Of a stretch of DNA of 40,657 bases, positions 893 through 40,456 are shown piece after piece; positions within the stretch are counted from its first letter, which is position 1; each line of letters starts with the position of its first letter. This DNA comes from a virus. Location of the stretch: positions 1-40,657 of IMG/VR virus record IMGVR_UViG_3300006165_000016; one strand, written 5' to 3'. The notes below the pieces were generated by a model that was not told where the DNA came from, searched no databases, and saw only the letters and a list, made by a program, of their open reading frames with translations. The position numbers and the translations under genes are program-made.

Positions 893-900
893 TATTTATA
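893..900 (+). promoter_or_regulatory. TATTTATA boundary motif, candidate late promoter
   Basis: The sequence GATATTTATA ends 19 bases before the ATG at 920, directly after the terminator, with an ACGGAG ribosome binding site between. It is the first of seven identical TATTTATA copies that precede unit-starting genes. The position fits a promoter -10 type element with a leader of about a dozen bases. T4 late promoters use TATAAATA, the reverse complement, so assignment as a sense promoter rests on position alone. Confidence 0.55.
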
Positions 901-919
901 GTAAAGACGGAGAAAAATT

Positions 920-1291
920 ATGTTTGAAAATGAAATATTCGAAGGAAAGAACTTTTCGGATCTATTAAAAGAAATACACACAAATTCTAAAAAAAAGGAT
1001 AAACAAATAACTTCCTTAATTGCCCAATTGCAACCACTTGTTAAAAACATAACAGATGCAACAATACTTGTACCATTGATAAAAGACTATTTAGATGTGG
1101 GTGTTAAAAATGACGACCAACTAATCAAAATGGCCAGCATAGTACAAAGAGCCATGACTAGGACAACTGAAGAGGGAACAGATTTTAGTCTTTCAGATGA
1201 TGAAAAAAGGCAGTTATTAGACACCGTAAAAGAAACAGCTAATGTAAAATGGGAAAAAGAAGTACACAACGATGGGAAAAAGGTCAAGTAG
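920..1291 (+). CDS. conserved-type phage protein of unknown function next to hub genes
   Basis: The product is 123 residues, mostly helical in pattern and rich in Lys, Asp and Glu, without signal peptide or membrane segment. A basic Lys-Lys-Lys stretch lies near residue 25. I do not recognise a catalytic motif. My recollection is that small helical proteins of this kind sit beside baseplate hub genes in T4-like marine phages, but this is unverified. The start is supported by the ACGGAG ribosome binding site and by the TATTTATA motif upstream. The last 20 bases overlap the first hub paralog in another frame, which suggests translational coupling. The likely job is a baseplate or tail-assembly factor, inferred from context only. 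Confidence 0.75.
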   Translation: MFENEIFEGKNFSDLLKEIHTNSKKKDKQITSLIAQLQPLVKNITDATILVPLIKDYLDVGVKNDDQLIKMASIVQRAMTRTTEEGTDFSLSDDEKRQLLDTVKETANVKWEKEVHNDGKKVK

Positions 1292-3704
1292 TAATACAAC
1301 GACGTTTAGTAAATCAACGTCAACAACTAAAGCGGCTAATACAGCCTTAGGGGGTATAGCTACCTCTGCTGAGGTTGTAGATATTATATTAGACCCAGGA
1401 CATCCTGCCTGGAGCCCCCAAACAAACCTTATAATCGGATCAGTAAAGGCTCGCCCATTAAAATCCTTTAATGCAAAAACGGACGACTTACAATGGTATC
1501 AACCACTACTAGCTAATTTTTATACTGCATATCCTTTAATTGGCGAAATAATTTTACTAATTGATGCAATAGGACAAGATGGTGAACAATCAACAAGAAG
1601 CACTGAAAAATATTATTTACCACCAATAAATGTTTTCCAAGACCAAAATAATAACCAGCTACCAGCTTCAAGTTTTGATATAAATCTGGGCTTAGCATCC
1701 CAAGCAGGAACAGATACAACTGCATGTGATCCATCAGGACAATACTCCTCAAATGTTGATGCAAAAAACGAACCAGTAGATTTAACCCCTCAATTAGGTA
1801 GAACATTTCAAGAAGCAAATATAGCAACACTAATACCATATGAAGGAGACGTTTTCTTTAATGGTCGAGCCGGCCAAAGTATTAGATTTGGAAGTACAAA
1901 TATTGGTGCAGCTACTCCAAATTATTGGTCAGGCGCTGGTACTGTTGGCGATCCTATAATAATAATGAGTAATGGACACAACAGACCAGAAGGAAGCGAC
2001 TTTCATATAGAAGATATAAATCACGATGCAGGTACCATGTTTATATGTGGTGGACAAGCTGTTGAAATTGCAGTAGCCACAGATCCTAACTGGGATTCCT
2101 ATGAAGTAGAATATGAAAAAGCCTCAGAAGAGGAAAGAATATTTGATTTTATGAATGATAAAGAAATAGAAAAGATAGGTCCAGCAAAACCATTTGAACC
2201 ACCAAATATATCTGAAGAAAATGATGAACCAGTAGAAGTTACACCTGAGGATATTAAAGATATTAAAGATATTAAAACAACTGAAGCATTAGAGGTAAAT
2301 AAAACAAAAAATGCCCATACATGTGGAACAGAATCAGATTTTAATGAAGATGCATGTATGGAAATAGTTCTTAATACAATTGCTGGTGGTGGTTCTAAAA
2401 AATATGACCATTTAGGTTGGATGGGTAAAAATGATGGAAAAAGTGGACCAAATTGGAAAACTGACAAGGGAGGATTTAATTCAGGTGGAGGTGAATGTTG
2501 GGTTGGTATATTACATTGGACAGGTAGATCCACAGCAACATTATATGCCGGTATGAAATCAACAGGTATGATCCGTAAATACTGGCCAGACAAGGTAACC
2601 ATACCAAACGAAGACCCTAGTAAGGGATACTACTATGATGGTAAATATGCAGGAAAAACTTTAACAGTTACTGAAGATGTATTAAATGATTTTTGTAAAA
2701 ATGCAAACTACAAAGAATTACTTTATGACTGGTGGGCAAAACCAATGAAACGGTTTGTTGAAAGTGGTAGTGACTCTGAAAAAGCACAAAAGAAAGCTGT
2801 ATGGCTTAAGTTTGGTAAGAAGGTAGCAACATATAAAGGAAAGGGTGGTTGGAAAACCAAACGAGAATATGCAATTGCAATGTTCTTCCTTAATTCATAT
2901 GGTGCACCACTATATACATTTAATTGGTATGGGTCTGAAGGAACAACCTATGAAAATAGAAAGGTCCTTAACCGAGGAACTACTAAAATGGTAGATTCAA
3001 TGGTTGGTGAAAATTGTATGCCTGTTGGTGACTGTTTGGAATGGGACGCAGAAGCACTTATGAAATATTACTGTGGAGGAATGATAAAAGACTATAATGG
3101 TCCAAGAGGAGATAAGGATGCACGAACAGGTCCTGGAGAACAGCAGGTATCTTGTTGTAGAAGTAGGTGTTTACACGTTAACAAACACTACCCACCATGC
3201 TGCTGTAGGTTTGACGAAACCAATGAATTATATAGGGAATTTGTTTTTGGTGGATGTGGTAAAACTCAAAGAGGTGATGGAAGTCTTGATGGAACAGGAG
3301 ATGTACCAGCAACATGCTATGTAAAAGAATGGAGAGAACAAACTGACTATGGTCCAGAAAAAGGTGTTGGAACATGTGAAGCCCCTCCTATTCCAACTCC
3401 ACAACCAAAGACAAACCCACCATCAACTGATGGCATTACCCCAATTGGAACTGGAGAACCATGTCAATGTCAATCTAGGTGTGACAATAATTTCTCACCA
3501 ATGATGGGTAAGAAAACAGATACCGGTGAATGTGACTGTAGATTCTTCTTGAATAGTGGTGCTGAGATTCTAAATCAAGCTGGTTGTGATCCTCCAAGAA
3601 AGATGAATGGTAATTGTGATTGTATCTGTTCAAATGGCGAATTTTGGGACGAATTAAATCAGGTTTGTATTAGTCAAGCAGAAAAAACATATAGAGGCTT
3701 ATAA
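1272..3704 (+). CDS. gp5-like baseplate hub/spike paralog 1, with divergent lysozyme-like and Cys-rich domains
   Basis: This 810-residue protein is the first of three tandem paralogs. Residues about 30-290 match the other two: an OB-fold-like start (Ala-Glu-Val-Val-Asp-Ile, later Gln-Trp-Tyr-Gln-Pro-Leu), the block Gln-Asp-x-Asn-Asn-Asn-Gln, then Gly-Gln-Ser-Ile-Arg-Phe-Gly-Ser-Thr and an Asp-Pro-Ile-Ile-Ile segment. This resembles hub proteins that trimerise as the central spike. A Glu/Pro-rich linker follows. Residues about 360-480 hold a domain with GILHWTGR at 412-419, related to GLAQWTGSR of paralog 2. The Glu that would match its catalytic Glu is not obvious, although Glu364 is conserved in paralog 3. 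CCRSRC at 628-633 and a tail rich in Cys (about 740-800) are striking. The basic Ser/Thr-rich N-terminus matches paralog 2, supporting this start despite the 20-base overlap upstream. Confidence 0.8.
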   Translation: MGKRSSSNTTTFSKSTSTTKAANTALGGIATSAEVVDIILDPGHPAWSPQTNLIIGSVKARPLKSFNAKTDDLQWYQPLLANFYTAYPLIGEIILLIDAIGQDGEQSTRSTEKYYLPPINVFQDQNNNQLPASSFDINLGLASQAGTDTTACDPSGQYSSNVDAKNEPVDLTPQLGRTFQEANIATLIPYEGDVFFNGRAGQSIRFGSTNIGAATPNYWSGAGTVGDPIIIMSNGHNRPEGSDFHIEDINHDAGTMFICGGQAVEIAVATDPNWDSYEVEYEKASEEERIFDFMNDKEIEKIGPAKPFEPPNISEENDEPVEVTPEDIKDIKDIKTTEALEVNKTKNAHTCGTESDFNEDACMEIVLNTIAGGGSKKYDHLGWMGKNDGKSGPNWKTDKGGFNSGGGECWVGILHWTGRSTATLYAGMKSTGMIRKYWPDKVTIPNEDPSKGYYYDGKYAGKTLTVTEDVLNDFCKNANYKELLYDWWAKPMKRFVESGSDSEKAQKKAVWLKFGKKVATYKGKGGWKTKREYAIAMFFLNSYGAPLYTFNWYGSEGTTYENRKVLNRGTTKMVDSMVGENCMPVGDCLEWDAEALMKYYCGGMIKDYNGPRGDKDARTGPGEQQVSCCRSRCLHVNKHYPPCCCRFDETNELYREFVFGGCGKTQRGDGSLDGTGDVPATCYVKEWREQTDYGPEKGVGTCEAPPIPTPQPKTNPPSTDGITPIGTGEPCQCQSRCDNNFSPMMGKKTDTGECDCRFFLNSGAEILNQAGCDPPRKMNGNCDCICSNGEFWDELNQVCISQAEKTYRGL
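2250..2276 (+). repeat. three tandem copies of a 9-base repeat in a linker
   Basis: GATATTAAA occurs three times in a row, encoding Asp-Ile-Lys three times in the acidic linker between the hub domain and the lysozyme-like domain of paralog 1. A 9-base unit keeps frame, so copy number could vary without damage to the protein. Confidence 0.85.
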
Positions 3705-3706
3705 AC

Positions 3707-5950: not shown

Positions 5951-5961
5951 AAGATTAAATT

Positions 5962-8211: not shown

Positions 8212-8229
8212 AAAATTGTTATATTTTGA

Positions 8230-8237
8230 TATTTATA
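8230..8237 (+). promoter_or_regulatory. TATTTATA boundary motif, candidate late promoter
   Basis: GATATTTATATAT lies in the 46-base gap after paralog 3, ending about 20 bases before the ATG at 8258. A strong AGGAGAAAA ribosome binding site follows it. The spacing nearly matches the copy before 920. Confidence 0.55.
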
Positions 8238-8257
8238 TATAACAGGAGAAAAATACA

Positions 8258-8647
8258 ATGGCATACAAACCAGAAGCACCAGATAAATACGCTGGAAAAC
8301 AAGTACTAATAAGTTCAGATAGAATATTATTTAACGCAAGAAAAGATTCTGTGTTTTTATTTTCTGATAAATCTGTAGGTATATCGACAAATGGTACATT
8401 TAATGTAGATACTGGAGAAGATACTATAATAAATAGTCCGGGAATATACTTAGGACTAGACGCAAAAGAAAAATGTGTTTTAGGAGATACTTTGGTTGCA
8501 TGGATGGAATCCCTAGCAGACGCATTAATGAGTCATAATCATTTACATGCGCAAGGACCAACAACAGGATTAGTTGATCCATCCCCATTTAACCAAGCTA
8601 AAACTAATGCAAAACAGGCACTTAGTGCACAAAATTATACTTTATAA
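8258..8647 (+). CDS. spike-tip-like protein, resembling the C-terminal needle part of gp5 hubs
   Basis: The 129-residue product opens with a stretch of short beta strands: an Ile-Ser-Ser-Asp-Arg-Ile-Leu-Phe segment, then Ser-Val-Phe-Leu-Phe-Ser, Ser-Val-Gly-Ile-Ser-Thr-Asn-Gly, and Tyr-Leu-Gly-Leu-Asp. This is the pattern seen in the triple-stranded beta-helix at the end of phage spike proteins. A helical part follows (about 80-95) with His-Asn-His-Leu-His, where the His residues could bind metal. In T4 the needle is part of gp5; here it would be a separate polypeptide next to three hub paralogs that lack it. The strong ribosome binding site and the motif upstream support the start and suggest high expression. 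The assignment rests on pattern recognition, not on a search. Confidence 0.65.
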   Translation: MAYKPEAPDKYAGKQVLISSDRILFNARKDSVFLFSDKSVGISTNGTFNVDTGEDTIINSPGIYLGLDAKEKCVLGDTLVAWMESLADALMSHNHLHAQGPTTGLVDPSPFNQAKTNAKQALSAQNYTL

Positions 8648-8652
8648 TTATT

Positions 8653-9090: not shown

Positions 9091-9111
9091 CATATAATTG
9101 TATACTCTTTA

Positions 9112-9119
9112 TATTTATA
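9112..9119 (+). promoter_or_regulatory. TATTTATA boundary motif, candidate late promoter
   Basis: TTTATATTTATATAACG sits in the 65-base gap between 9090 and 9156. The distance to the ATG (about 36 bases) is longer than at 920 or 8258. An AAAGGAGAAAA ribosome binding site lies just before the start codon. Confidence 0.5.
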
Positions 9120-9155
9120 TAACGTATAATAGTATTATACCAAAGGAGAAAAAGT

Positions 9156-9623
9156 ATGAAAAAATCTATATTAGTAAAAATTATAAAGGATGCAGTTAGA
9201 GAAGTTGTCCGAGAAGAAGTCAAAGCTGCCATAAATGAAGAGTTGGATATTAAAAAACCATCTACAACTACTGAATTTTCAAATGTTATGAGTCATGCTG
9301 AAGATTTATTTAATCCAAAAGAAACAAGTAAATCATCGTTTGCAAAAAACCCAGTATTAAATGCTGCACTAAACGAAACAGCCGATTCTTGGAAAACAAT
9401 GGGTAACAAAACACTAAAGGGGTCAGATGCTGGTGGTGGAAGGACAGGTTTAGCAGCTATAATGGGAATGCAATCTCCAGACCAAACATTTGGTGGAAAA
9501 CCAACAGCCCAACAAATGATACCAAACGATAGAAAACACATAGAAGTACCTCAAGAAGTAGAAAAAGCCTTAACAAGAGATTATAGCGATCTAATGAAGG
9601 TGATAAACAAAAAAGGTAAATAA
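9156..9623 (+). CDS. unknown phage protein with charged N-terminal helix
   Basis: The 155-residue protein begins with a strongly charged amphipathic helix (about residues 1-32, alternating Lys/Arg/Glu with Val/Ile), likely a coiled coil. A Ser/Thr/Asn/Lys-rich middle and a Gly-rich segment at about 90-110 follow. There are no Cys residues, membrane segments or catalytic motifs that I recognise. The strong AAAGGAG ribosome binding site and the TATTTATA motif upstream suggest it starts a well-expressed unit. It abuts the methyltransferase gene with no gap: its TAA is followed directly by ATG. A capsid, tail or scaffold-like role would fit but nothing proves it. Confidence 0.7.
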   Translation: MKKSILVKIIKDAVREVVREEVKAAINEELDIKKPSTTTEFSNVMSHAEDLFNPKETSKSSFAKNPVLNAALNETADSWKTMGNKTLKGSDAGGGRTGLAAIMGMQSPDQTFGGKPTAQQMIPNDRKHIEVPQEVEKALTRDYSDLMKVINKKGK

Positions 9624-10277: not shown

Positions 10278-10283
10278 TATATT

Positions 10284-10739: not shown

Positions 10740-10740
10740 T

Positions 10741-12615: not shown

Positions 12616-12624
12616 GAGATAATT

Positions 12625-13800: not shown

Positions 13801-13803
13801 ATT

Positions 13804-15132: not shown

Positions 15133-15158
15133 CTCTCGTTAAAAGTGAAAAATAAATT

Positions 15159-19727: not shown

Positions 19728-19744
19728 AATATGTCTTAAAGATA

Positions 19745-19752
19745 TATTTATA
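19745..19752 (+). promoter_or_regulatory. TATTTATA boundary motif, candidate late promoter
   Basis: GATATATTTATATATG occupies the 53-base gap before 19781, ending about 28 bases before the start codon. A GGAG ribosome binding site lies at 19769-19772. It opens the unit of three virion proteins that follow. Confidence 0.53.
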
Positions 19753-19780: not shown

Positions 19781-20452
19781 ATGGGATATTTAGACAAAAC
19801 AACAATTACAGTAGATGCTATCCTTACAAAAAAGGGTAGAGAACTTCTAGCAAGAGGTTCTGAATTTTTTGAAATAACACAATTTGCATTAGCAGATGAT
19901 GAAATAGATTATGGTCTTTGGGATGTTAATCATTCTTTAGGTAGTAATTATTACGGCCAAGCAATTGAAGCAATGCCTTTGGTAGAAGCAGTACCAGATG
20001 AAACACAGGTATGTAAATATAAACTTGTGACATTGCCGAAAAATATATCTAGAATGCCAACAGTAACGGCGATACCACAAGCAATCACTCTTACAGCTGG
20101 AGGCCAAAATGCAGCAATTACACCAACAACTGTAAATTTTGCAAATGGTAATGCAACATATGGCTACACCGCAATATTATCGGATACAGATGTATGTTAT
20201 CTAAATGTTGGTGCAGGTGGAGGGGTTGATAGCAGATATAACCCAACAGTTGCAGATTTTGCTGGTGATTCCACTAAATCAATTTCAATGGTAGGAAAAA
20301 CCTTCCAAGTAGTAGCAAAACCTCAACCTATTGAAACAAAAACAGCAACAATAACGCTTATTGGAAATGAAACTGGTGGAGTAGTAACAGTAACAGTTAC
20401 TGTTCAAAAAGAAAACTTATCTAGTAATGTTTTAGAATCAGCAGTATATTAG
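19781..20452 (+). CDS. virion structural protein with conserved N-terminal domain and Ig-like C-terminus
   Basis: The 223-residue protein has an N-terminal domain of about 90 residues (Gly-Tyr-Leu-Asp, Thr-Val-Asp-Ala-Ile-Leu-Thr, Lys-Gly-Arg-Glu-Leu-Leu, Ile-Thr-Gln-Phe-Ala-Leu-Ala-Asp-Asp-Glu, Met-Pro). I recall this as a recurring structural module in marine T4-like phages, but cannot confirm it here. Residues about 92-212 are beta-rich and Thr/Val/Ala-rich, like a bacterial Ig-like or BACON-type domain, ending Val-Thr-Val-Thr-Val-Gln-Lys. It starts a new unit after the TATTTATA motif. It probably decorates the tail or joins fibre proteins to the baseplate. Confidence 0.72.
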   Translation: MGYLDKTTITVDAILTKKGRELLARGSEFFEITQFALADDEIDYGLWDVNHSLGSNYYGQAIEAMPLVEAVPDETQVCKYKLVTLPKNISRMPTVTAIPQAITLTAGGQNAAITPTTVNFANGNATYGYTAILSDTDVCYLNVGAGGGVDSRYNPTVADFAGDSTKSISMVGKTFQVVAKPQPIETKTATITLIGNETGGVVTVTVTVQKENLSSNVLESAVY

Positions 20453-21684: not shown

Positions 21685-21702
21685 GATTAGGTTTGTGATG
21701 AT

Positions 21703-25104: not shown

Positions 25105-25116
25105 CTAGAGACAACA

Positions 25117-25518: not shown

Positions 25519-25553
25519 TTTTTTTATTTGAAATATTTTTCTTATATTAAACT

Positions 25554-26471
25554 ATGAATAAGTTAAGATTAGTCCAACTACTAGAATCAATTCTTTCTAA
25601 GGGTAGTTTTAATACCCAAAGTAGTGAAATAACATTTTATTGTCCATTCTGCACCCACCATAAGAAAAAGTTAAATATAAATTTAATAAGTGAAAAGTGG
25701 CATTGTTGGGTTTGTGGAATAGGTGGCCACAAGATATTTGGATTATTTAAGAAATTAAAGGTCCATGCAAAATATTTTAATGAATTATCAAAAATAACTG
25801 GAAAAACTAATTCCAATATTAGTAATAAAGATTATGATTTTGTAACCCTTCCTCAAGAATTTATTCAATTGTCTAAATCAAATAAAAAATTACCAGAAGT
25901 AAAAAATGCATTATATTATTTGAAAAAAAGAGGAATAGATTATATAGATATTTTGAAATACAATATTGGTATATGTGAAAAAGGAAAGTATAGTGGAATG
26001 ATTATTATACCAAGTTATGATAAAAATGGAAACTTAAATTTTTTTACTGGTCGAAGTTATTATGATGTTGCATTCAAACATTTAAATCCAACTGTATCAA
26101 AAGATATTATAGGATTTGAATTGTTTATAAATTGGAATGAACCTATTACAATAGTAGAAGGAGCCTTTGACGCAATTGCTGTAAAACGAAATGCAATTCC
26201 ATTATTTGGTAAAATAATTCCAGATTCATTAAAAATGAAAATTTTAGATGAAAAAGTTAATAGAATAAATATTGCTTTAGATAAAGATGCATTTAAGAAC
26301 GCATTAGAGATGGCAGAATATTTTATGTCCTATGGCCTATCGGTTTCTTTTATAGAATTACCAGAAAAAGACCCATCTGATTTAGGATTTGATAAAATAA
26401 CAAATATATTAAATAATTCTAATATATTAAGTAACCAAAAGATACTGGAGTATAAAATAAATGAATATTAA
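25554..26471 (+). CDS. DnaG-type DNA primase (zinc finger plus TOPRIM)
   Basis: The 305-residue product has a CHC2-like zinc-binding domain (Cys30-x2-Cys33 with nearby His35/His36, then Cys51-x2-Cys54). A linker containing Tyr-Leu-Lys-Lys-Arg-Gly-Ile follows. The TOPRIM core has Val-Glu202-Gly-Ala-Phe-Asp-Ala at 201-207 and Asp243-Lys-Asp245, the metal-binding acid and DxD pair. It lacks any helicase domain, so it acts as a stand-alone primase like T4 gp61 and needs a separate helicase partner, not seen in this window. There is no evident ribosome binding site before the ATG; the 35-base gap upstream is extremely AT-rich and has no TATTTATA copy. Its last 11 bases overlap the SbcDC fusion. 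Confidence 0.9.
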   Translation: MNKLRLVQLLESILSKGSFNTQSSEITFYCPFCTHHKKKLNINLISEKWHCWVCGIGGHKIFGLFKKLKVHAKYFNELSKITGKTNSNISNKDYDFVTLPQEFIQLSKSNKKLPEVKNALYYLKKRGIDYIDILKYNIGICEKGKYSGMIIIPSYDKNGNLNFFTGRSYYDVAFKHLNPTVSKDIIGFELFINWNEPITIVEGAFDAIAVKRNAIPLFGKIIPDSLKMKILDEKVNRINIALDKDAFKNALEMAEYFMSYGLSVSFIELPEKDPSDLGFDKITNILNNSNILSNQKILEYKINEY

Positions 26472-29400
26472 CATTGATTTTGACAAAGTAGAAAAAATTC
26501 TACATATAGCTGATATACACATTAGAAACTATAAGCGACACAAGGAATATAGGCAAGTATTTAGAAAATTATATAAGGAGGCCAGAACTCTTCCTAAAAA
26601 TAGTTTAATTTATGTTGGTGGAGATATTGTCCATACAAAAACAGATATTAGTCCAGAGCTAGTTCAAATTGTTAGCGAATTCTTAAATAGACTAGCAAAT
26701 ATTAGACCAACAATAGTTATCGCTGGAAATCACGATGCAAATCTAAATAACAAATCTAGGTTAGATGCTCTATCTCCAATAATAGAAAATTTAGCCAATG
26801 AAAACTTATATTATCTTAGAGACAGTGGAATATATAATATTGCTAATATAGACTTTATAGTATATTCAATTTTAGATGAACCAGAAGAATGGCCAAATGC
26901 AAAAGATTCATCATCAAAAAATAAAATAGGCCTATTCCACGGAGCAGTAAATAATTCTAAAACTGATGCTGGATATACTGTTCGAGATGAAAGCCTCCCA
27001 TTAAAAACCTTTAGTGGTTGTCATATGGTAATGCTTGGTGATATTCATAAATACCAATACTTAAATAAGGCTGAAACTTTTGCATATGCCGGATCAATGA
27101 TACAACAAAACTTTGGAGAAACATTTGAAAACCATGGATATGTTATTTGGGATGTTGAAACTAGAAAATCTGAATTTTTTAATATTCATAATGATTATGG
27201 GTATTATACATTAAGAGTAAAGGATGGAATACTTCCAAACATTGATAACATTCCAAAATATCCAAGGCTAAGATTCATAACAGAAAATACTACCCAGGCC
27301 CAAATAAAAGAAATGTTAATTGAAATTAGAAAAAAATGCAAGGTTCATGATTTCGTAGCAATAAAGGCAGATAAGCTTGCCAATATGTCAAACAATTCTA
27401 GGGGAAGTATAGCTATAACAAAAGATATACGAGATTCAGAGTACCAAAATAAACTTATAGAAGAACACTTAGAAAGAAACTTTCCAATAGTCGATGATGC
27501 CATATTAAAAAGAATAAGAAATATAAATAGAGACCTAAATAAACTTTTACCAGATGTAGAAATTGGTAGAAATATAAATTGGAAACCAAAGAAATTTGAA
27601 TTTTCAAACATGTTTAGTTATGGCGAAAACAATTCTATAAATTTTAATAATATGTCAGGAGCTATTGGTATATTTGCAGAAAATCATGCTGGTAAATCTG
27701 CTATTTTAGACGCTTTAGCATATTGTATTTTTGATAAATGTTCTAGAACTAAAATGGCAGCTGCTGTAATAAACAATAAGAAAAATAATTTTACTTGCAA
27801 ATTAAATTTTGAAATAGATGGGGTAGATTACTTTATTGAAAGAACAGGTAAACGAAAAAAAGATGGAGGAGCAAGGGTAGATGTTGATTTTTGGATGATT
27901 GGAGAAGATGGAAACCCAATATCCTTAAATGGAGACCAACGTGTATATACAAATAAAAATATTAGAGGTTATCTTGGAAATTATGAAGATTTCGAACTAA
28001 CAACTCTATCAGTACAAAATAACAATACAGGGTTTATAGACAAAACCCAAACAGAAAAAAAAGATTTACTAGCTCAATTTTTAGATATTAGTGTATTTGA
28101 AGAGTTATATAATTACGCAAACGAAGAAATAAAAGACGTACAGGTACTTCTAAAAGATTTTAAGAATACTGATTTTTCTCAAAAATTACATGAAGAAACA
28201 GTTTTACAGGAAGAATTAAAATCAACATATTCAACCATAGAAAAACAAAGAATTAAGTTATTAAAAAGTGAAAAAGTTGTAAATAAAAAGATTATAGAAT
28301 ATACGTCTAAGGTAATACAACTAGACCCTGAAGTACCAGATAGTGTAGAAACACTAGAATCCGATGCAAAAGTAATAATATTAGATATTAAGGCAGAATC
28401 AGAAAAATTAGAAAAATATGAAACATATACTGAAGAAAATAAAGTAGAGTTTCTCGAAATATCTAAAAATATAAAGGAATATAATAGAAAAAAAATAGAG
28501 ACTGATTCTAATAGAAATACTCAAGTAGAAACTTTATTACAAAAACTTAATCATGAAATAGAAATGATGAAGGTAAAGGTTAAGAATAAATTGGACACTG
28601 TTAATCAACTCCACTCCCATGAATATGATCCAGATTGTGAATTTTGCTGTGATAATTCTTTTGTAAAGTCAGCTGAAAAAGCCAAACAAGAATTACCAAA
28701 ATTAAAATTAGAAACTGAAAAATTATTAGAATCTAAGTTAACCTTAAAGAAAGAGTTAGAACAATTAAAAGATTCTGTTGGACAAGGATTTTTATTAACC
28801 AAGTTAGATTCAAAACTTTCTTTAATAAAACAATATCAATCTGAAATAAAAATAAAAACTATAACTAGAAAATCCAACATAACTAAAAAAGAATTAAATC
28901 AAAAACACATTAAGTCTTTAATAGAAAAATATTATCAAAACAAGCGGTCTATAATTTCAAATAATAAAATAAATGAAAATATAATTAAAAAAGATTTAGA
29001 ATTAGAAGTCATCCAACAAAATCTATCAGATATAAATTCTAAATTACAAACTGCATATAGTAATATTAGTGTTTGCCAAAAAACAATAGAAAATATTTTA
29101 GAATCTATAGAAAGAGCCCACGATTTAGAAGAAAGATTAAGGGCATATGAATATTATCTTAATGCAATACAGCGAGATGGAGTACCATATGAACTTATTT
29201 CAGAAATATTACCATATGTAGAAGAAGAAGTTAATTTAATTCTTTCACAAATAACAGATTTTTCAATACAATTCGAAACTGACGGCCGAAACATAAATAC
29301 TTTTATTGTATATGGTGAAGAAGAAAAATGGGCCCTAGAAATGACATCTGGAATGGAAAAGTTTGTTAGTTCCCTTGCAATAAGGGTTGCCCTAATAAAT

Positions 29401-29616: not shown

Positions 29617-29633
29617 ATCACACGTTAAACTGA

Positions 29634-29641
29634 TATTTATA
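29634..29641 (+). promoter_or_regulatory. TATTTATA boundary motif, candidate late promoter
   Basis: TGATATTTATATATTGAT fills the 50-base gap between the SbcDC fusion and the long fibre gene, ending 25 bases before the ATG at 29667. A TTAGGAG ribosome binding site follows. The position marks the return from DNA-metabolism genes to structural genes. Confidence 0.57.
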
Positions 29642-29666
29642 TATTGATAGTTTAGGAGTTTTTCAT

Positions 29667-32600
29667 ATGGCAAAAATATTAAGATTTGATGAACCATCAG
29701 AGTTCACACCACTAACATATAGGGGATTGGATACTCTTCCAGTTTACATTGTTGAAGAGGGAGGTACCTCATACGATTATTTCGGATTTACAGAAATACC
29801 AGATGAATTAAACGCTGGTAGAAATCTGTTGGCCCTAACGGGTACAAAAAATCTTGTTCCAGGTTCTGAAATTGCAATAGAGGTATTAAATGCTAATGGT
29901 GAGTTAATACCTGTTAAAACATTTGACCATATTGGATTTGGAAACCGTAGGGTATTCGCAATAGAAGTAAACGAAAAAGTACCTGAAGGAGATGCTGTAA
30001 TTACTGTTGTTGGTACAGCTAAAGGTAAGGTTGGTTTTAACTCAGAAGGAGGTAGAGACAATTCACAACCAATGCCTAGAAACTATTCTGGTCGATTTAA
30101 TATACGTTGGCAAAAAAGATTAAATTGTTATCCAAGAAAAAGAAATACTTCTGATGTTGTATTTTTCCCAAATCCAGATATAACTATAGAAGAAATAAAA
30201 AGACCCTATTGGAAATTAGATTATAATTCAAGACTAACATCATCATACACAAATTTAGAACACAATCAGGCAGCAGAATTTACGTTGGTTTCAGATTCTT
30301 CAATATCAGATACAGGGTTTCAAAATACTTCTGCAAGTTTAAGATATGAAGTAGAAGGAAATAAATACTTTATTTTTGCAAACGATGAACCAGATTTTGG
30401 TGGATTTACAGATGATATGATTGGAGGAACTATATTGTTTCCTAATCCTGTAGGAGTATATCCAAAATCAACAAATGGTCCCTATGCCCCACCAGTTTAT
30501 AATGAATTAGAAGATGGAGATGGAACAGGTGTATTGGATACTGGTTCATTATCAGCACAATATTCTAATCAAGGGGCATATAGTACATATATTATAGAAA
30601 GATTATCTCCATTACAACTTAGAGTAAATAGTCCTCACACAACAATGCAGGGCCAAGGAAGAAATAATCAAAAAGAGATTTTCCACCGTACTTTTGCACC
30701 TAGTGATTTTAGACTAGATTGGGGACAAGACCCCATATTAAAAACAGACTCTTTAATGAGTGCATCCTCAAACCCAGATGATAAGTTTTATACTTCATAT
30801 GCATATATACAATTTAATAATTTAACACCAATTGCTGGTGATATTACTAGAATAAAAACATATATTAGAAACGACCAAACAACAAATGATTTTCATTTAG
30901 TTGGTGATAATCCAGTATTTTCTCCTGAATTATTGGTACAATCTCAATCGCTAAGAACAAGGTTTCCAGCTGGAGATTTTACTGAATTTGGTGTAAGTTC
31001 ATCGTTATTTGAATATTGGGAAGGTGCAGCTAATACAGGTGCAACCATAAATAATCCTGAACTAATAATATATAAGATGAGTACTGGAAATGTTGCAACT
31101 CCAATACGAGAATCCTTACAGGTAGGCCTACTAAATACAGCAACTGGCCTACAAACAACTAGTGATTATTGGTTGGTAAAATCAACGGTTGATATTGAAT
31201 TCAGAGAAAATCAATATTACGAAATCTCATTTAAGTCTTATGCTATAAAAACCCCTCCAAATGGTCCATCCCCAGAAATGCATGTATATATGCATGGACC
31301 AGCTGTAAATTCTACTGGTGATGTTGATGGAAAACTAATAGGAACAATAAATGGTATTGAAAATAATGAATTGGTTGTTTCTGAAGACCCACTAAACTTT
31401 AATATTCAAGGTGGTAATAAATTTACTTTCAAGGCCGATGCAACTGAATTTGCAAGATTAAGATTCAAAATTATTTCAGGATTATGGTATATAGCAGATA
31501 TATCTGTTAAACCATATGACCATTTTGGATATACTCCCCATTATTTTGATACAATAATACCAACAATAAAGGGTAATGTCGGAGAAAAAGATGCATTAGA
31601 TTTTAGGTTTGAGTTTTATAATGATGACCATAGAAAAGCTGCATATACATCTGAAATTAAAAATGTAGAATTTGATAATGAATTTACATTCACAGCAACA
31701 AGTGTATTTTTTAATAGTGCTAGTATAGATACCTTTTTTGGTAATACCCCAATAGGAGATAATGATTGGGTTAAAACCCATTATAGTTCAGCCCTATTAG
31801 CACATGAAATGCCAGAATTATCTGAAAGCATTTATCACATAGGTAATGTTGGAATAGGAGAATTCTCTGCATCCTTTGTTAATTATCCGTTACAAATAAA
31901 GAAGGGTCCAGCTGAGGGTAACGCAACGATTAGACTAGACTCTTATTCCTCATCAATACTCCATTTGGCTGCAGATATTGGTGGAACAGCCCCGACAAGT
32001 AAAAGTGCACAAATATTATTTGACCATAATAATGCTGCAACTTCATCTATTATTGGTTATACCGATATAGCAGATACAGATCCTGGTGGCGCAACAATGG
32101 ATGGCGCCTCAAAGGGCGGATTCACAATACACGAAAGACACGGTAGAATAATGAATTTAGGTGTTGGTGGATATTCCAGATTTCATTTAGTTACAGGAAA
32201 AAGTTCAGACTACAGAAACGCTGGATCACATGCAACATTTATAGGTTATAGAAATCCAAAACCTGGCGATTTTGAATATGAATTACATATTTCTGGTAGT
32301 GAAATAATAAATAGTGGTTCTATTTATTTACCAGATGCCCCAATAGATAATTCAGCAACATATGCAGCAGTAATACATTCAACAAAGGGTAGAGTTGGAA
32401 AACGACTATTATCAGATTTAACTGGGGATGATGATTGGCATATAGCAGCTACATATATAACACAATCAAGAATAGGAAGTCATGGAAAAACTATATGGAT
32501 AGGTGATGGATTAGTTACTACTGGTTTAACTCCAACATCCTATATATTTCAAATTTCACAAAGTACATCTAGTCCAAAGGTTAGATTAGAAGGTATACCA

Positions 32601-35078
32601 TATGCTGCATCAATGTCAAATAATGTTTTAATAGTAGAATCATCAACAGGAAAATTGTATACTACTGGATCTTATGGTGTTGGTAGTGGTGGAGGCGGTG
32701 GAGGCGGTGATGATGGCGATTGGCATAAGTCAGGATCTTCATCTCCCCCAACAAGCATAAATGATTCTATATGGACATCTGGTAGTGTGGAGCTTGGTTG
32801 GATTAATGGAAATCCTTCCCAATCCCAATACACTCCAACATACAAGAGTATTTATAAACCAGCGTTACATGTTCGAGGAAGAATTGAACAAACCTTTAAT
32901 GGTGGTAGTGACCAAGAAAAAGCAACAATAATTGGATTATATGCTGGTATGTCTTATTCAATGTATTCCCATACTGGAGACCCAAAAGGATATGATGGTT
33001 CTACACAAAACCATTGGGGAGGTGGAATTGGTAATACTTATATTGGATACGCAGTAGGTAGAAACCGAGAACTAAACGATGATTCTGGTTGTTCAGAAAA
33101 TACTGCTGTTGGTAATGAGGCATTTATGGGCGCAACTAATCTCGGCATGGATGGTGGAAACTATAATACTTATATTGGTTCGAAGGCTGGAAAAGATGCT
33201 CTTGATGGAAATGATAATACAGGCGTAGGATCACAAGCCATGCATAACGTATCTACTGGGGAGGATAATGTAGTTTTAGGTTCACAAGCAGCTAAGGGTC
33301 TACTAACTGGAGACAAAAATACCATGTTAGGATATAATACTGGAGATGAAATAACTAGTGGAGATGGAAACATATTTATTGGAGCTTCTGCAGGTGATGG
33401 AACTGGAAATGTATCTAATACTTTTGCTATTTCTTCTAATGCTGGAACCCAACTTAACTCACCAATATGTGGTACAGGAATGAATACTAGTGCAGCTCTA
33501 ATACGAATAAATGACGCTCTTGGTATAGGAAAAGTTCCAGCATATGCATTGGATGTACTAACGAGAGCAGACGGCGCAGACCCAGTAAGAGTTGATAAAT
33601 TTACAGAGGATGGTGGTAGACAAATGGTTTGGGACCCAACAAGTAAACTCATTCATGTCACTCAAACTGTAATTAACAAAAATGGCCAACAACAAGCCTT
33701 TGTCAATACACAAAATTCTCCAAGTGTTCAAATCATATCGGGTTCTGTAATGCTAATTAGATCTGGTGCAGTATCTCAATCCAATGGTTTCTATGCAAAT
33801 GACCCAACAATCTATCTTGGAAAACTGGAAGTTGATTCAAGAGATGAAACCAGCTTTTATTTAACAGGATCATCCCAATCAGGAAGTGTTTATCTTTCTG
33901 GATCTGGAAGGATTGGATTTGGAACAGACGACCCTCAATCAGAAATGGATTTTAGAGCTGATGAAGTTAGATTTACTCAAAGAGGATCGCTAGCTGGTGT
34001 AAAAATAAATACAGAAGGAAATTTTGAATCATTCTTATCAGATACACAGGGTGGAACAACAGGTAGTGAATACATATTAAAATTTAACAGGGGTGGATCT
34101 AGTATAATTACTGGAGACTTCCTAGCGGCAAAATTAGGTATTGAGGTACCAGATGACGCTGGAGAATATTTTAACGGCCTAAGAGAAGGTCTTAAAACCG
34201 AACTACTCATGAAGGCTGAAGATGATGGTTTGATGCAGATAGCTGAACCTGGAGATATTATTGGATCTATTAGATATACAGTTGATTCAGGTAGTACTTT
34301 AGATTCAAGAGGAGCTGGAGAAGCAGCAACAATAAAGACTATTGTTAATACTGCAGGAACTTCTGGGGTAACAGCTAAATTAGTACTTAGTGTTGCTAAA
34401 TCTGAAGGATCAGCTGCAGAAGAAGTAATAACAGCTAATGTTGGAGGTATGAATGTAGTTGGACACATAACAGCCTCAGGTAATATAAGTACATTAGGTA
34501 ATATAAGTTCAAGTGGAACTATATATGGAGCAGATTTACGTGCTAACAGTTTGAAAACACCTGCAGGACAAACTCTAATAAGGTATCATGGTGGATCAGA
34601 AACTGTTAGACTTGGTGTTAACGCAAATAATAGTAATCCTCTCCAACTACAAGGACACATAACTGCATCAGGTAATATAAGTGCAAGTGGATATATTTAT
34701 ACAGGTGGAGACATACACACAACAGGAGATGTTGTAGCATCTAGTACAACCCCATCAGATTATAGGTTAAAAAAGAATATTGGTGATATATCAAATCCAT
34801 TAAAAACAATCCGCGATTTAGTAGGTAAATCATTTGACTGGAAAAATACAGATGAATCAGATTATGGTCTAATTGCACAAGAAGTTGAAAAAATACTTCC
34901 TGAATTAGTAAAGGAAAAAAATATTCTTGGAAAAGATAAACAATATAAAGTTGTAAAATATATGTCAATGATACCTATTTTAATAGAGTCAATCAAAGAA
35001 CTAGACAATAACAATAATTTATTAGAAGAAAAACTAAACAAACTTATATTTGAGGTTAATAACCTTAAAAATAATTAA
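29667..35078 (+). CDS. long tail fibre with C-terminal S74 self-cleaving chaperone domain
   Basis: At 1803 residues this is the largest product here. An N-terminal domain (about 1-150), presumably for attachment, is followed by beta-rich domains to about 700. A shaft follows with phrases such as Gly-Asn-Val-Gly-Ile-Gly. A Gly-rich hinge (seven Gly in a row) lies near 1010. Residues 1145-1243 carry trimeric-adhesin-like repeats (Asn-Thr-Ala-Val-Gly, Asn-Thr-Tyr-Ile-Gly and variants). Alternating Ala-Ser-Gly-Asn-Ile-Ser motifs lead to the S74 peptidase domain at 1697-1803, where Ser1697-Asp-Tyr-Arg-Leu-Lys1702 supplies the Ser-Lys dyad. In this family the domain folds the trimer and then cuts itself off just before the Ser. 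The TTAGGAG ribosome binding site and the upstream motif fix the start. This is the main host-binding fibre candidate. Confidence 0.9.
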   Translation: MAKILRFDEPSEFTPLTYRGLDTLPVYIVEEGGTSYDYFGFTEIPDELNAGRNLLALTGTKNLVPGSEIAIEVLNANGELIPVKTFDHIGFGNRRVFAIEVNEKVPEGDAVITVVGTAKGKVGFNSEGGRDNSQPMPRNYSGRFNIRWQKRLNCYPRKRNTSDVVFFPNPDITIEEIKRPYWKLDYNSRLTSSYTNLEHNQAAEFTLVSDSSISDTGFQNTSASLRYEVEGNKYFIFANDEPDFGGFTDDMIGGTILFPNPVGVYPKSTNGPYAPPVYNELEDGDGTGVLDTGSLSAQYSNQGAYSTYIIERLSPLQLRVNSPHTTMQGQGRNNQKEIFHRTFAPSDFRLDWGQDPILKTDSLMSASSNPDDKFYTSYAYIQFNNLTPIAGDITRIKTYIRNDQTTNDFHLVGDNPVFSPELLVQSQSLRTRFPAGDFTEFGVSSSLFEYWEGAANTGATINNPELIIYKMSTGNVATPIRESLQVGLLNTATGLQTTSDYWLVKSTVDIEFRENQYYEISFKSYAIKTPPNGPSPEMHVYMHGPAVNSTGDVDGKLIGTINGIENNELVVSEDPLNFNIQGGNKFTFKADATEFARLRFKIISGLWYIADISVKPYDHFGYTPHYFDTIIPTIKGNVGEKDALDFRFEFYNDDHRKAAYTSEIKNVEFDNEFTFTATSVFFNSASIDTFFGNTPIGDNDWVKTHYSSALLAHEMPELSESIYHIGNVGIGEFSASFVNYPLQIKKGPAEGNATIRLDSYSSSILHLAADIGGTAPTSKSAQILFDHNNAATSSIIGYTDIADTDPGGATMDGASKGGFTIHERHGRIMNLGVGGYSRFHLVTGKSSDYRNAGSHATFIGYRNPKPGDFEYELHISGSEIINSGSIYLPDAPIDNSATYAAVIHSTKGRVGKRLLSDLTGDDDWHIAATYITQSRIGSHGKTIWIGDGLVTTGLTPTSYIFQISQSTSSPKVRLEGIPYAASMSNNVLIVESSTGKLYTTGSYGVGSGGGGGGGDDGDWHKSGSSSPPTSINDSIWTSGSVELGWINGNPSQSQYTPTYKSIYKPALHVRGRIEQTFNGGSDQEKATIIGLYAGMSYSMYSHTGDPKGYDGSTQNHWGGGIGNTYIGYAVGRNRELNDDSGCSENTAVGNEAFMGATNLGMDGGNYNTYIGSKAGKDALDGNDNTGVGSQAMHNVSTGEDNVVLGSQAAKGLLTGDKNTMLGYNTGDEITSGDGNIFIGASAGDGTGNVSNTFAISSNAGTQLNSPICGTGMNTSAALIRINDALGIGKVPAYALDVLTRADGADPVRVDKFTEDGGRQMVWDPTSKLIHVTQTVINKNGQQQAFVNTQNSPSVQIISGSVMLIRSGAVSQSNGFYANDPTIYLGKLEVDSRDETSFYLTGSSQSGSVYLSGSGRIGFGTDDPQSEMDFRADEVRFTQRGSLAGVKINTEGNFESFLSDTQGGTTGSEYILKFNRGGSSIITGDFLAAKLGIEVPDDAGEYFNGLREGLKTELLMKAEDDGLMQIAEPGDIIGSIRYTVDSGSTLDSRGAGEAATIKTIVNTAGTSGVTAKLVLSVAKSEGSAAEEVITANVGGMNVVGHITASGNISTLGNISSSGTIYGADLRANSLKTPAGQTLIRYHGGSETVRLGVNANNSNPLQLQGHITASGNISASGYIYTGGDIHTTGDVVASSTTPSDYRLKKNIGDISNPLKTIRDLVGKSFDWKNTDESDYGLIAQEVEKILPELVKEKNILGKDKQYKVVKYMSMIPILIESIKELDNNNNLLEEKLNKLIFEVNNLKNN
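33099..33395 (+). repeat. trimeric-adhesin-like protein repeats in the long fibre
   Basis: The encoded segment has about six imperfect repeats of 14-25 residues with the cores Asn-Thr-Ala-Val-Gly, Asn-Thr-Tyr-Ile-Gly, Asn-Thr-Gly-Val-Gly, Asn-Val-Val-Leu-Gly, Asn-Thr-Met-Leu-Gly and Asn-Ile-Phe-Ile-Gly. Each is followed by Gly-Asp/Ser-rich turns and small residues. This is the left-handed parallel beta-roll pattern of YadA-like heads, here within a phage fibre shaft. Confidence 0.75.
34665..34771 (+). repeat. near-identical 107-base segment, copy 1 (end of long fibre)
   Basis: This segment matches 37321-37427 with about eight mismatches and no gaps by eye. It covers the last Ala-Ser-Gly-Asn-Ile-Ser repeat, the Gly-Gly-Asp-Ile-His stretch and the first residues of the S74 domain including the cleavage Ser. 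Past the Ser-Lys dyad the two genes diverge markedly at DNA level. Confidence 0.88.
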
Positions 35079-35082
35079 ATGA

Positions 35083-35090
35083 TATTTATA
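35083..35090 (+). promoter_or_regulatory. TATTTATA boundary motif touching the start codon
   Basis: GATATTTATAT ends immediately before the ATG at 35092, with a single base between the 8-mer and the start codon. There is no ribosome binding site in the 13-base gap. A promoter here would start transcription inside the gene, so either the mRNA is near-leaderless or the motif has another role at this site. Confidence 0.42.
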
Positions 35091-35091
35091 T

Positions 35092-35406
35092 ATGGCACAA
35101 GTTGTAAATCATATAAAGTGGGAAAACGCAGATTTCGAATGGAATGATAACCCGTATTTATGGAACGACGTAGCATTTATAGAGGGAATAAACAGAGCAG
35201 CTGGCAAAATCGGCCTACAAAATGCTTTAGATGTATTAAATCCTGAAAAAAAGAAAAGACTTGTACATTTAATAATGCGTAAAAAAGGTATAAAAATATA
35301 CGATAAATCTAAGTCTGTAAAAGATGTAAAAATAAACATTAAAGACGTAGAGATGATAATAAAAGAGGTGAAGGCCCAAATAGAAGCGGAGAATATACAT
35401 GTATAA
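35092..35406 (+). CDS. small unknown phage protein with Trp-Asn-Asp motifs
   Basis: The 104-residue product begins with a Trp-rich patch (Lys-Trp-Glu-Asn, Trp-Asn-Asp-Asn, Tyr-Leu-Trp-Asn-Asp-Val, residues 9-27). The rest is helical and rich in Lys, Val and Ile. No membrane segment or enzyme motif is seen. There is no other plausible Met start nearby upstream. It lies between two fibre genes and overlaps the next gene by 8 bases, so a role in fibre assembly or attachment is likely, but I do not recognise the family. Confidence 0.68.
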   Translation: MAQVVNHIKWENADFEWNDNPYLWNDVAFIEGINRAAGKIGLQNALDVLNPEKKKRLVHLIMRKKGIKIYDKSKSVKDVKINIKDVEMIIKEVKAQIEAENIHV

Positions 35407-35971: not shown

Positions 35972-35982
35972 GGGTTATATAA

Positions 35983-37692
35983 ATGGCTGGATCAGACGAC
36001 TTCACAGGCCAAAATATTCAGGATACATATCAAAGGGTACTCCAACTATCAAGTAGTGGAGAGCTAGCAGACGGAACAGGTTCAGTGGTACCATTACTAC
36101 TCGTAACTGCATCTTATGCTATATCAGCTTCTCATGAGATAACGACAGAAATTTCATCATCCCATGCAATATCCGCGGATTCGGCTTCTTACATATTAGC
36201 AGACAATATTGACCAACCATTTAATACTATAACAGCTTCAGGTAATATAAGTTCAAGTGGTGATTTATTCGGCCATAATTTAACTCTAACAACAGCTGCA
36301 ACAGTTCTTAGATTAGTGGTTGACCAAATAGATGAATATAATTCTGGTGAGGGAATATCTATAATGCATAGTATAACAGCCTCAAATAATATAAGTGCAA
36401 GTGGGTATATTTATGCAGATCATTATTATTCAAATGGAGGACTTATTGCCCGTGATAGTGGAACAACTACCTATTATGGAAATAATAAACAAACAGAAAT
36501 AGATGGAACAAATATAAAATTAGATGCACCAGTATCAGCATCTATAATATCAGCATCAACATATATAGGTACCTCTGCAAGTATTACTAATATATATAAT
36601 ACTTCATTAACATCATCTATTATAAGTTCAAGTGGTTATATACATACACCAGAAATTCGTGGTCATGGAATAGGTACTACACAATTACATGTACAAGGCC
36701 ACATATCAGCATCTGGAGATATAAGTGCAAGTGGTATTCTTTATGCAAACAAACTAACTTCTCCATCTTCATTAATGTTGACGACATCTGATTTATATGT
36801 TAAGGGTGGTTCATTAAGGACAGATCCTTTCCATTATATTACAACAGGAAATATAACATCATCCGGTTTTAATTCTGCTCAAGGTAATATAAGTGCAAGT
36901 GGCGATATTATATCATCTAAATTTGTTCTTAATAATGATACAGTAACAGGAGTTTCTCTTACAAACCCTTCAGCTGGAACTTTTAACATAAAAGCAGGTG
37001 ATGGTGGTGCATTAGATGTTGTTGGATTTAAGTCAATAAAAACAACATTTGAAACAACTGTTCATACTCAAATATCAGCTTCAGGAAATATAAGTGCAAG
37101 CGGTGATATTATAAATACTGGAAATTTAACAACAGGACAAATAACAGCAAGTGGAGATATTGATGCTCAAGGTTATAAATCTGGTGGCAACTATGCTGCA
37201 ATTTGGAATGGTTCTTCAATGGTCTTGGGGACATACCAACAACCAGCGACAATAAGAAGTTCCGAACTAGAACTTAACCAAGGTAACCTTACATTAACAT
37301 CTACTAATGGGCATATATCAGCATCAGGAAATATAAGTGCAAGTGGATATATTTATGCAGGTGGAGATATACATGCAATAGGAGATGTCGTAGCATCTAG
37401 TACAACCCCATCAGATTATAGATTAAAGGAAAACATTAAACCGATTGATAGTCCATTAGAAAAGGTTCTTAACTTAGATGGAAAATCATTTAATTGGAAA
37501 AAAGACCAAACTCCAGACTTTGGATTGATTGCACAAGATGTAGAAAAAATAATACCTCAATTAGTAAAAAATAAAAATATACTTGGTGCAGAAGAAACAT
37601 ATAAGGTTGTAAATTATATTTCAATAATTCCATTACTTATAGAATCTATAAAAGAATTAAATAATAAAATAGAGGAGATTAAACATGGCTAA
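35983..37692 (+). CDS. short tail fibre with C-terminal S74 self-cleaving chaperone domain
   Basis: The 569-residue product is a simpler version of the long fibre. A short N-terminal domain (about 1-70) is followed by a shaft made of many copies of an Ile-Ser-Ala-Ser-Gly-Asn-Ile-Ser-Ala-Ser-Gly type motif. The S74 domain covers 477-569, with Ser477-Asp-Tyr-Arg-Leu-Lys482 as the dyad and likely self-cleavage point before Ser477. The domain is about 93 residues against 107 in the long fibre. The ribosome binding site (AGGGG) is weak. Its stop overlaps the next gene by 8 bases. It could form a second fibre or compete for the same attachment site; the two shaft ends share a near-identical 107-base segment. 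Confidence 0.88.
   Translation: MAGSDDFTGQNIQDTYQRVLQLSSSGELADGTGSVVPLLLVTASYAISASHEITTEISSSHAISADSASYILADNIDQPFNTITASGNISSSGDLFGHNLTLTTAATVLRLVVDQIDEYNSGEGISIMHSITASNNISASGYIYADHYYSNGGLIARDSGTTTYYGNNKQTEIDGTNIKLDAPVSASIISASTYIGTSASITNIYNTSLTSSIISSSGYIHTPEIRGHGIGTTQLHVQGHISASGDISASGILYANKLTSPSSLMLTTSDLYVKGGSLRTDPFHYITTGNITSSGFNSAQGNISASGDIISSKFVLNNDTVTGVSLTNPSAGTFNIKAGDGGALDVVGFKSIKTTFETTVHTQISASGNISASGDIINTGNLTTGQITASGDIDAQGYKSGGNYAAIWNGSSMVLGTYQQPATIRSSELELNQGNLTLTSTNGHISASGNISASGYIYAGGDIHAIGDVVASSTTPSDYRLKENIKPIDSPLEKVLNLDGKSFNWKKDQTPDFGLIAQDVEKIIPQLVKNKNILGAEETYKVVNYISIIPLLIESIKELNNKIEEIKHG
37321..37427 (+). repeat. near-identical 107-base segment, copy 2 (end of short fibre)
   Basis: This is the partner of 34665-34771. 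Most of the differences fall in third codon positions or conservative codons. The two copies lie about 2.7 kb apart in the same orientation, so recombination between them would delete the two small genes and fuse the fibres in frame. Confidence 0.88.
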
Positions 37693-39394: not shown

Positions 39395-39404
39395 GAGATA
39401 AATT

Positions 39405-39875: not shown

Positions 39876-39878
39876 TAT

Positions 39879-40436
39879 ATGTATTACTATCAAACAGGTT
39901 TTACTGAAGTTTTTGGAGGTTATCCACAGGCCGCCAATGGTAGCCTAACGGCCATCATATCAGATGGTGGCCAATTTTATCTAGACGTAGGTAAAAATGC
40001 AGCCTATGCTAATTTAACTGTATCTAATATTCTGAATTTCCCATCTTCCACTTTTGGTTATGAGGTAACAGGTATAGAAATAGTTATCGTAGATGCCGGC
40101 ACAAGTTGCATAATTGATTCCGAATTCTCTACAAGAATATACCATCATGGTGAAAGTGCCTTTACATCCACTATAACAACTACAGTCCCTGCTGGTACTA
40201 ATCCTAGTAGTACAAATATTTTAGTTGGTGGTCCAACTGAATTATGGGGCAAAACTTGGACTTTCGGGATGATAAACGATGATTTTCGTGTAAATTTATT
40301 TGATCCCGTAGAACCAACACCCGCTATTGCCCTTATGGCAGATTATATATATGTGAAAGTATATTATAAACTTACAAATTCTATTTCTTTTAGTTCTGGA
40401 AAAATATCAATGATTAGCGGAAACATAACAATATAG
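39879..40436 (+). CDS. unknown beta-rich phage protein
   Basis: The 185-residue product starts 3 bases after the previous stop without a clear ribosome binding site. It is strand-rich, Thr/Ser/Gly-rich, with few charged residues, and includes a Tyr-Ile-Tyr-Val-Lys-Val-Tyr-Tyr strand at about 160-167 of the kind that ends jelly-roll domains. The C-terminus repeats Ser-Gly and Ile-Ser motifs. It is probably a virion surface protein or fibre accessory and closes the adhesion cluster. I do not recognise the family. Confidence 0.65.
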   Translation: MYYYQTGFTEVFGGYPQAANGSLTAIISDGGQFYLDVGKNAAYANLTVSNILNFPSSTFGYEVTGIEIVIVDAGTSCIIDSEFSTRIYHHGESAFTSTITTTVPAGTNPSSTNILVGGPTELWGKTWTFGMINDDFRVNLFDPVEPTPAIALMADYIYVKVYYKLTNSISFSSGKISMISGNITI

Positions 40437-40448
40437 AATATATCTTTA

Positions 40449-40456
40449 TATTTATA
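40449..40456 (+). promoter_or_regulatory. TATTTATA boundary motif close to the start codon
   Basis: CTTTATATTTATAATAT occupies the 24-base gap before 40461, with four bases between the 8-mer and the ATG. As at 35083, no ribosome binding site is seen and a usual promoter geometry would leave almost no leader. Confidence 0.43.

Follow-up and report, generated by a model that had tools for sequence, protein, structure and literature searches.

A candidate late-promoter box and its putative sigma-like reader in a myovirus distantly related to T4

IMGVR_UViG_3300006165_000016 is an entire virus record of the IMG/VR database, 40,657 bases long with a GC content of ~34%, and the whole of it was analysed here as 'the window'. 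It represents the tail region of a myovirus that is a distant relative of T4, from a phage group which we take to be the one labelled 'far-T4'. Gaps before several of its genes carry the box ATATTTATA, and we consider it highly probable that this is the -10-type core of a rightward phage late promoter that works without a -35 element, its most likely reader being a sigma-like protein encoded by the phage. An earlier note on this DNA, which had drawn attention to the shorter word TATTTATA, left three options open: a sense late element, T4-type promoters that point leftward, or a mark of boundaries of some other kind. It is the first of these that finds support, through gaps in relatives that hold the word almost exclusively in sense, through the late gene blocks of the Flavobacterium phage immuto, and through the starts of orthologous genes; the third is not needed, and the second is taken up below. 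By analogy with T4, late transcripts would start ~6 nucleotides (nt) after the box, which would leave leaders of ~14-31 nt before the five window starts with long spacing. Genes behind the box would be expressed late in the window phage, a phage protein of ~264 amino acids (aa) with a sigma-like fold would direct the host RNA polymerase to them, as gp55 does in T4, and the early genes of relatives would use other promoters.

Seven copies of the box in the gaps of the window

All seven gap copies of TATTTATA that had been listed earlier were found, on the + strand, at 893, 8230, 9112, 19745, 29634, 35083 and 40449. Four of them (893, 8230, 29634 and 35083) read GATATTTATA, again as listed, and all seven extend to ATATTTATA, the common core. 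Each stands before a + strand gene, with the qualification that the copies at 35083 and 40449 nearly touch the ATG; the 28 genes listed for the window are all on the + strand, and a mechanical caller of open reading frames (ORFs) adds a single one on the minus strand. Between box and ATG lie 1, 4, 19, 20, 25, 28 and 36 nt. Within genes, the copies already named at 16566 and 34694 were confirmed and are joined by a further sense copy at 32849 that had gone unnamed, while antisense TATTTATA occurs six times in the window, on every occasion inside a gene.

The claim that the gap copies are far above chance is borne out. Gaps 8 nt or longer number 18 (653 nt in total) and contain seven sense and no antisense copies where 0.36 would be expected, and chance is rejected: none of 20,000 dinucleotide shuffles within the gaps reached seven (the largest count was four), and among 56 words of equal base content the only two to do so are TATTTATA and ATATTTAT, the same word shifted by one base. 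Six of the ten gaps of at least 20 nt hold TATTTATA; it is absent from the gaps at 1-93, 529-594, 15133-15158 and 25519-25553, the last of which precedes the primase gene. Across the whole window and both strands the word occurs 16 times against an expected 9.8, a count that 5 of 100 shuffles reach and that is unremarkable. With the gap count enriched and the overall count not, the signal is one of position, not of abundance.

The box in related phages and before late genes

When the gp6-like protein of the window was used as a query, 28 loci were found in IMG/VR, and the named phages matched were Microcystis phage Mel-JY01, four immuto records, and two uncultured phages, LR756508 and LR756511. 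Of the records behind the IMG/VR loci, 21 (G004, G007 and G016 only to 20 kilobases (kb)) were turned to their main coding strand, and ORFs were taken by a longest-ORF rule; gene calls are mechanical, and the exact-word search misses variants. In the intergenic DNA of the window and these records, which overlap and are not independent, TATTTATA is present 83 times in sense and nine times in antisense. Five of the nine lie in G001, a record that matches the window at 99.97% identity across 14,352 bases. The longer GATATTTATA occurs anywhere in this set 37 times in sense and never in antisense. After removal of gaps with 24-mers in common, the top enriched 8-mers are TATTTATA, found in 36 of 113 gaps (3.6 expected), and the word shifted from it by one base, and in 50 gaps from regions of Mel-JY01, immuto and LR756508 it is TATTTATA that ranks first, with 8 against 0.8 expected. 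The intergenic DNA of relatives, where the earlier note had proposed that its suggestion be checked, is thus enriched in the box, mostly in sense.

Ten longer records were found by means of the candidate reader described below, and five of these were taken (75-153 kb). The ratio of intergenic copies that face the next gene to those that face away is 21:0, 23:5, 30:7, 21:1 and 7:1 in the five contigs, 15:3 in Mel-JY01 and 24:6 in immuto, where part of the 'away' copies belong to the palindrome TATTTATAAATA. A second gap count, made for the window, for the five contigs and for both immuto and Mel-JY01, gave 6-28 copies of TATTTATA per set with 0.3-2.1 expected. Enrichment is not clear in the gaps of LR756508 (3 copies in 240 of its 484 kb, 0.8 expected) or in G013 (2 copies, 0.5 expected); G013 is one of four records, with G012, G014 and G015, that have too few late gaps for the box to be judged. 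In the first 50 of the 175 kb of S-CAM9, neither TATTTATA nor the T4 word TATAAATA was found in 27 gaps. Other motifs were also seen. The gaps of G013 contain ten copies of TAGATTCTA (0.1 expected) and nine of AAGCATGTAC (<0.1 expected), and ahead of genes in G022 and G023 the sequence TTTGGATAwGTC lies ~13-20 nt before TTATATTAG, as a second promoter-like motif. Near 57009, 57413, 67408 and 70104 of G023 a sense box is followed directly by an antisense box, forming a 16-nt palindrome.

Individual boxes of the window, all on the + strand, are kept at the starts of orthologous genes (the counts exclude the window's own copy). That at 892..900, in the GATATTTATA form and 19 nt before the ATG at 920, recurs at 45 of the 65 other distinct starts of orthologues, and that at 9111..9119, 36 nt before the ATG at 9156, at 32 of 38. 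For the box at 8229..8237 (GATATTTATA form, 20 nt before the ATG at 8258) the figure is 5 of 31 other starts, for 19744..19752 (28 nt before the ATG at 19781) it is 7 of 12, and for 29633..29641 (GATATTTATA form), 25 nt before the ATG at 29667 of an 1803-aa tail fibre protein, it is 3 of 3. Three listed orthologues of the gene at 19781 that lack the exact word carry TATTTATTA, so counts of the exact word are a lower bound. The box at 35082..35090 (GATATTTATA form), 1 nt before the ATG at 35092, is kept at 4 of 5 orthologous starts with spacings of 1, 1, 1 and 3 nt, and that at 40448..40456, 4 nt before the ATG at 40461 of a gene that runs off the window, at 4 of 8 matched starts with spacings of 4, 4, 4 and 5 nt. 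At both places (35083-35094 and 40449-40463) diverged orthologues share the short spacing. A terminator-like hairpin followed by a T run, at 845..874 on the + strand, lies directly before the box at 892; it was read by eye and not by a terminator scan.

The link with late genes is seen in immuto, the late blocks of which were set from its annotation at 78.9-101.83 kb (baseplate and fibres) and 116.5-160.4 kb (terminase to tail). The box is found in 15 of 27 upstream gaps within these blocks and in 6 of 67 elsewhere (Fisher p 4e-6), and it precedes the genes for the terminase (119017), the portal gp20 (120621), the sheath (147026), the tube (149201), the hub (149798) and the tape measure (150801); a few immuto sites, early and late, were omitted by the mechanical caller. 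In Mel-JY01 the box lies before the tail-tube gene (34466 to 34510) and before genes after the capsid and the large terminase. A different motif, TATTTAGG with TTG upstream, lies outside the immuto late blocks in 12 of 12 cases, with the TTG present at 12 of 12, whereas TTG is upstream of TATTTATA at 8 of 23 sites. The Bacteroidetes sigma-A promoter has the form TTTG-N19-TAnnTTTG, which the TTG...TATTTAGG of immuto resembles. In the form TTG...TATTTAGGTA, the early-block motif of the same phage (for example at record positions 60956, 63153 and 67633) is likewise outside the late blocks in 12 of 12 cases, and has the shape of a host-like promoter.

The anatomy of the element was read from 158 pooled non-redundant sites, with Mel-JY01 left out. 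Conserved in these are the box, the A that precedes it (0.91 bit) and a T or G before that A (0.44 bit). No -35 element was found: every remaining column as far upstream as -45 stays at or below 0.21 bit, the commonest upstream 6-mer is present at 12 sites against a shuffle mean of 12.8, and nothing at the 158 sites corresponds to the -33 element of the Bacteroidetes consensus. The spacing from box to called start in the window group is mostly 19-39 nt, with a second class of 1-8 nt. Leaders of 10-60 nt contain a Shine-Dalgarno-like motif in 40 of 48 cases in the window group and in 0 of 18 in immuto. For the close boxes at 35083 and 40449 a T4-like start would fall past the first ATG, and they may give a leaderless mRNA or a shifted start, or have another role.

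The candidate reader and the changed box of RM378

The family of the candidate reader was pointed to by a weak match of the gp55 profile phrog_234 in immuto gp118, a 'hypothetical protein'; this profile matches 1 of 14 records (E 0.008, and E 0.5 against the library), and phrog_12791 matches none of the 14. Members of the family are encoded in 15 of 25 records, immuto included, and the other ten records, of which the window is one, are fragments. In G001 the reader gene occupies 26103-26894, its end 45 nt short of the base (26943) that matches base 1 of the window, and in IMG/VR at least 600 stretches encode relatives. An alignment of 45 members gave a structural model of the ~264-aa protein with a predicted local distance difference test (pLDDT) score of 87.7 and a predicted template modelling (pTM) score of 0.58. 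Sigma factors and initiation complexes top the Foldseek list of PDB entries for this predicted model, and in a viral structure library, where the best match is an unnamed 264-residue protein (E 3e-5) and RM378 p020 has the same length, sigma factors make up 17 of the 32 named entries among the 50 matches shown. A PHROG sigma model matches 3 of the 45 members. VIA-align superposes the predicted model on 4lup, which is region 2 of sigma-E together with its -10 strand, at Z 9.6 and 2.5 Å over 91 residues, although the tool warns that helical models often reach such Z values. The C-terminal domain, when modelled alone, aligns with sigma-A region 4 at Z 4.8, tied with M domains of the signal recognition particle, and Foldseek of this domain lists no sigma factor; as modelled, it is not clearly a sigma 4 domain. 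Nothing relevant came from sequence searches of the PDB, whether immuto gp118 or the family profile was the query. Pfam misses even T4 gp55, so its silence on the reader means little. Judged from the predicted fold, the protein is likely to be sigma-like, and conservation together with that fold makes it plausible that it reads the TATTTATA box.

A relative of the reader is found in the Rhodothermus phage RM378, where p020 aligns to the family with an hhalign E of 1e-8 over 210 columns; a comparison of p020 with the gp55 profile gave nothing. The p020 protein matches 14 ORFs of the related contigs, that of immuto not among them. The annotated sigma factor of RM378, p144, was also considered as the common reader, and was rejected on finding no relative at E <= 1 among the ORFs of the related contigs. 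The gaps of RM378 contain 22 copies of TTATTTAA and 19 of TATTTAAA (0.8 expected for each) and no TATTTATA. As in the window, the element has a TATTTA core and stands in sense before genes, here on both strands, and unlike that of the window the box TATTTAAA ends in AA rather than TA. Of its 35 copies in the genome, 26 are in sense and no more than 60 nt away from an annotated start (11 on the + and 15 on the - strand), while the reverse word is present in 9 of 146 upstream stretches. The spacing to the ATG is mostly 5-10 nt (18 of 26; exactly 5 nt at eight genes, 7 at four and 8 at four), compared with 19-39 nt for most sites of the window group. With the T4 box at about -13 to -6, a spacing of 5 nt would put the ATG at +1, and leaderless mRNAs are the simplest prediction; by this analogy, the RM378 genes with that spacing are predicted to have leaderless late mRNAs. 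The window copy at 40449, with its spacing of 4 nt, fits the same scheme within one base.

Comparison with T4 and competing explanations

The T4 late promoter TATAAATA is read by gp55 together with gp33 and the gp45 clamp. As described in excerpts of PMC2988020, it has no -35 element, its box is placed at position -13, promoters occur on both strands, and gp55 and gp33 are called a split sigma. The element of the window is like it in being a single 8-base-pair A/T box, in sense, before late genes and without a -35 element (PMC2988020, in excerpt), and unlike it in two central positions (TT for AA), so that six of eight positions agree in sense. Just as gp55 is a small diverged sigma, the candidate reader is sigma-like in its predicted fold; it is longer (~264 aa against 185 aa), is modelled with an extra C-terminal helical domain, and its orthology to gp55 is weakly supported. 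The gp45 profile phrog_223 matches none of 11 records, several of which are fragments (gp33 was not searched for), and Mel-JY01 has annotated clamp-loader genes. In the second gap count the window gaps hold a single sense copy of TATAAATA against seven of TATTTATA, and across the window and its relatives sense TATAAATA numbers 0-8 per set (0.25-2.9 expected) against 6-28 of TATTTATA. It is modestly more frequent than expected in G022, G023 and G026 and also in immuto, where the palindrome TATTTATAAATA is part of the reason. The T4 late region, as a control, has ten gap copies of TATAAATA with 0.55 expected. The late promoter of the cyanophage S-PM2, NATAAATA, is likewise a single box before late genes of a T4-related marine phage, and retains the ATAAATA core of T4, unlike the window box (PMC2984593, in excerpt). 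The reverse-complement relation between TATTTATA and the T4 core is best regarded as a coincidence.

Besides the warning on Z values, a number of observations weigh against a late promoter read by a phage sigma. The gaps of the T4 late region also hold six TATTTATA copies (0.42 expected), several of them the promoter of the opposite strand or part of a palindrome, and the word alone is therefore not diagnostic. In immuto no exact copy stands before the major capsid gene (126896), and of the 23 listed sites 8 fall outside the late blocks, among them that at 78885, which immediately precedes the opening gene of a block. In the window, the box at 35083 is too near the ATG for a T4-like start, and its spacing of 1 nt, kept at 1-3 nt in four diverged relatives, does not fit the scheme of RM378. 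With regard to the reader, the gp55 profile also matches in 7 of 14 control genomes, the best Foldseek E in the PDB is 0.31, Sigma70_r2 is matched by 4 of 45 members at E >= 0.088 with unrelated families matching equally well or better, and a profile comparison of reader and gp55 gives E 0.0019 and a probability of 14%. Lastly, LR756508 encodes a member of the family (43% identity) without clear enrichment of the box, and the pairing of box and reader is therefore not universal.

The best-surviving alternative, which we regard as unlikely, is that the box is an ordinary -10 element or other promoter part of the host sigma factor, with no phage factor needed; it is A/T-rich and -10-like, and the phage reader has been identified only by conservation and predicted fold. 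The lack of a -35 element at 158 sites argues against this, as does the enrichment of the same box in phages of both Flavobacterium and Microcystis, hosts whose promoters differ. The early genes of immuto, moreover, carry the host-like TTG...TATTTAGG instead. More improbable still is an element acting in RNA, in which UAUUUAUA in the leaders would aid translation start or mark a processing site. The very short and conserved spacings, of 1-3 nt for the orthologues of 35092, 4-5 nt for those of 40461 and 5 nt for eight RM378 genes, would suit such a role, but the spacing elsewhere varies over 19-39 nt, the box is found at only 7 of the 28 listed genes plus the last partial one, mostly in the larger gaps, and before the early genes of immuto a different promoter-like motif takes its place. 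Leftward T4-type promoters, from which TATAAATA in the gaps would yield antisense RNA, are the least credible of all: the exact reverse-complement match and the presence of T4 promoters on both strands (PMC2988020, in excerpt) are outweighed by 28 of 28 listed window genes that point right, a spacing to rightward start codons that is constrained across orthologues, conserved bases adjoining the box that follow the rightward reading, and an RM378 box that reads in the direction of the gene it precedes, whichever strand that gene is on (26 of 35 copies).

As to the remaining gene content of the window, profile matches were obtained to baseplate wedge proteins, tail fibres, an endonuclease, a primase and an SbcC/SbcD-like protein, and 18 of the 28 proteins have no PHROG match. 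A 1051-aa ORF at 26461-29616 matches an SbcD-like profile with residues 11-303 and an SbcC-like profile with residues 371-1050, and to judge from these matches it is apparently a fused gp47-gp46 nuclease. The fibre proteins encoded at 29667-35078 and 35983-37692 match the same tail-fibre profiles at their C-terminal ends, a similarity which suggests a shared tip or processing domain.

The single, longer reader protein, set against the split of gp55 and gp33 in T4, makes an unsplit form possible. It could be imagined, rather speculatively, that among the far-T4 myoviruses a large group, uncultivated for the most part, has an 'unsplit' late sigma that joins the role of gp55 (sigma 2) to a gp33-like second domain and reads TATTTATA, or TATTTAAA in the RM378 branch, with part of the late mRNAs, and most of those in RM378, leaderless or nearly so and starting at the ATG. 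In a limited full-text collection, no literature was found on TATTTATA as a phage late promoter, on Far-T4 phages in connection with a late promoter, or on Mel-JY01. Read as a late promoter, the box and its candidate reader would belong to an abundant marine phage group known here almost only from metagenomes, the late operons of which could then be called from sequence. The three natural pairs of box and reader, in T4, the window clade and RM378, would bear on how a sigma factor that uses only a -10 element picks its box, and the split-sigma arrangement of T4 could be tested against a possible unsplit relative.

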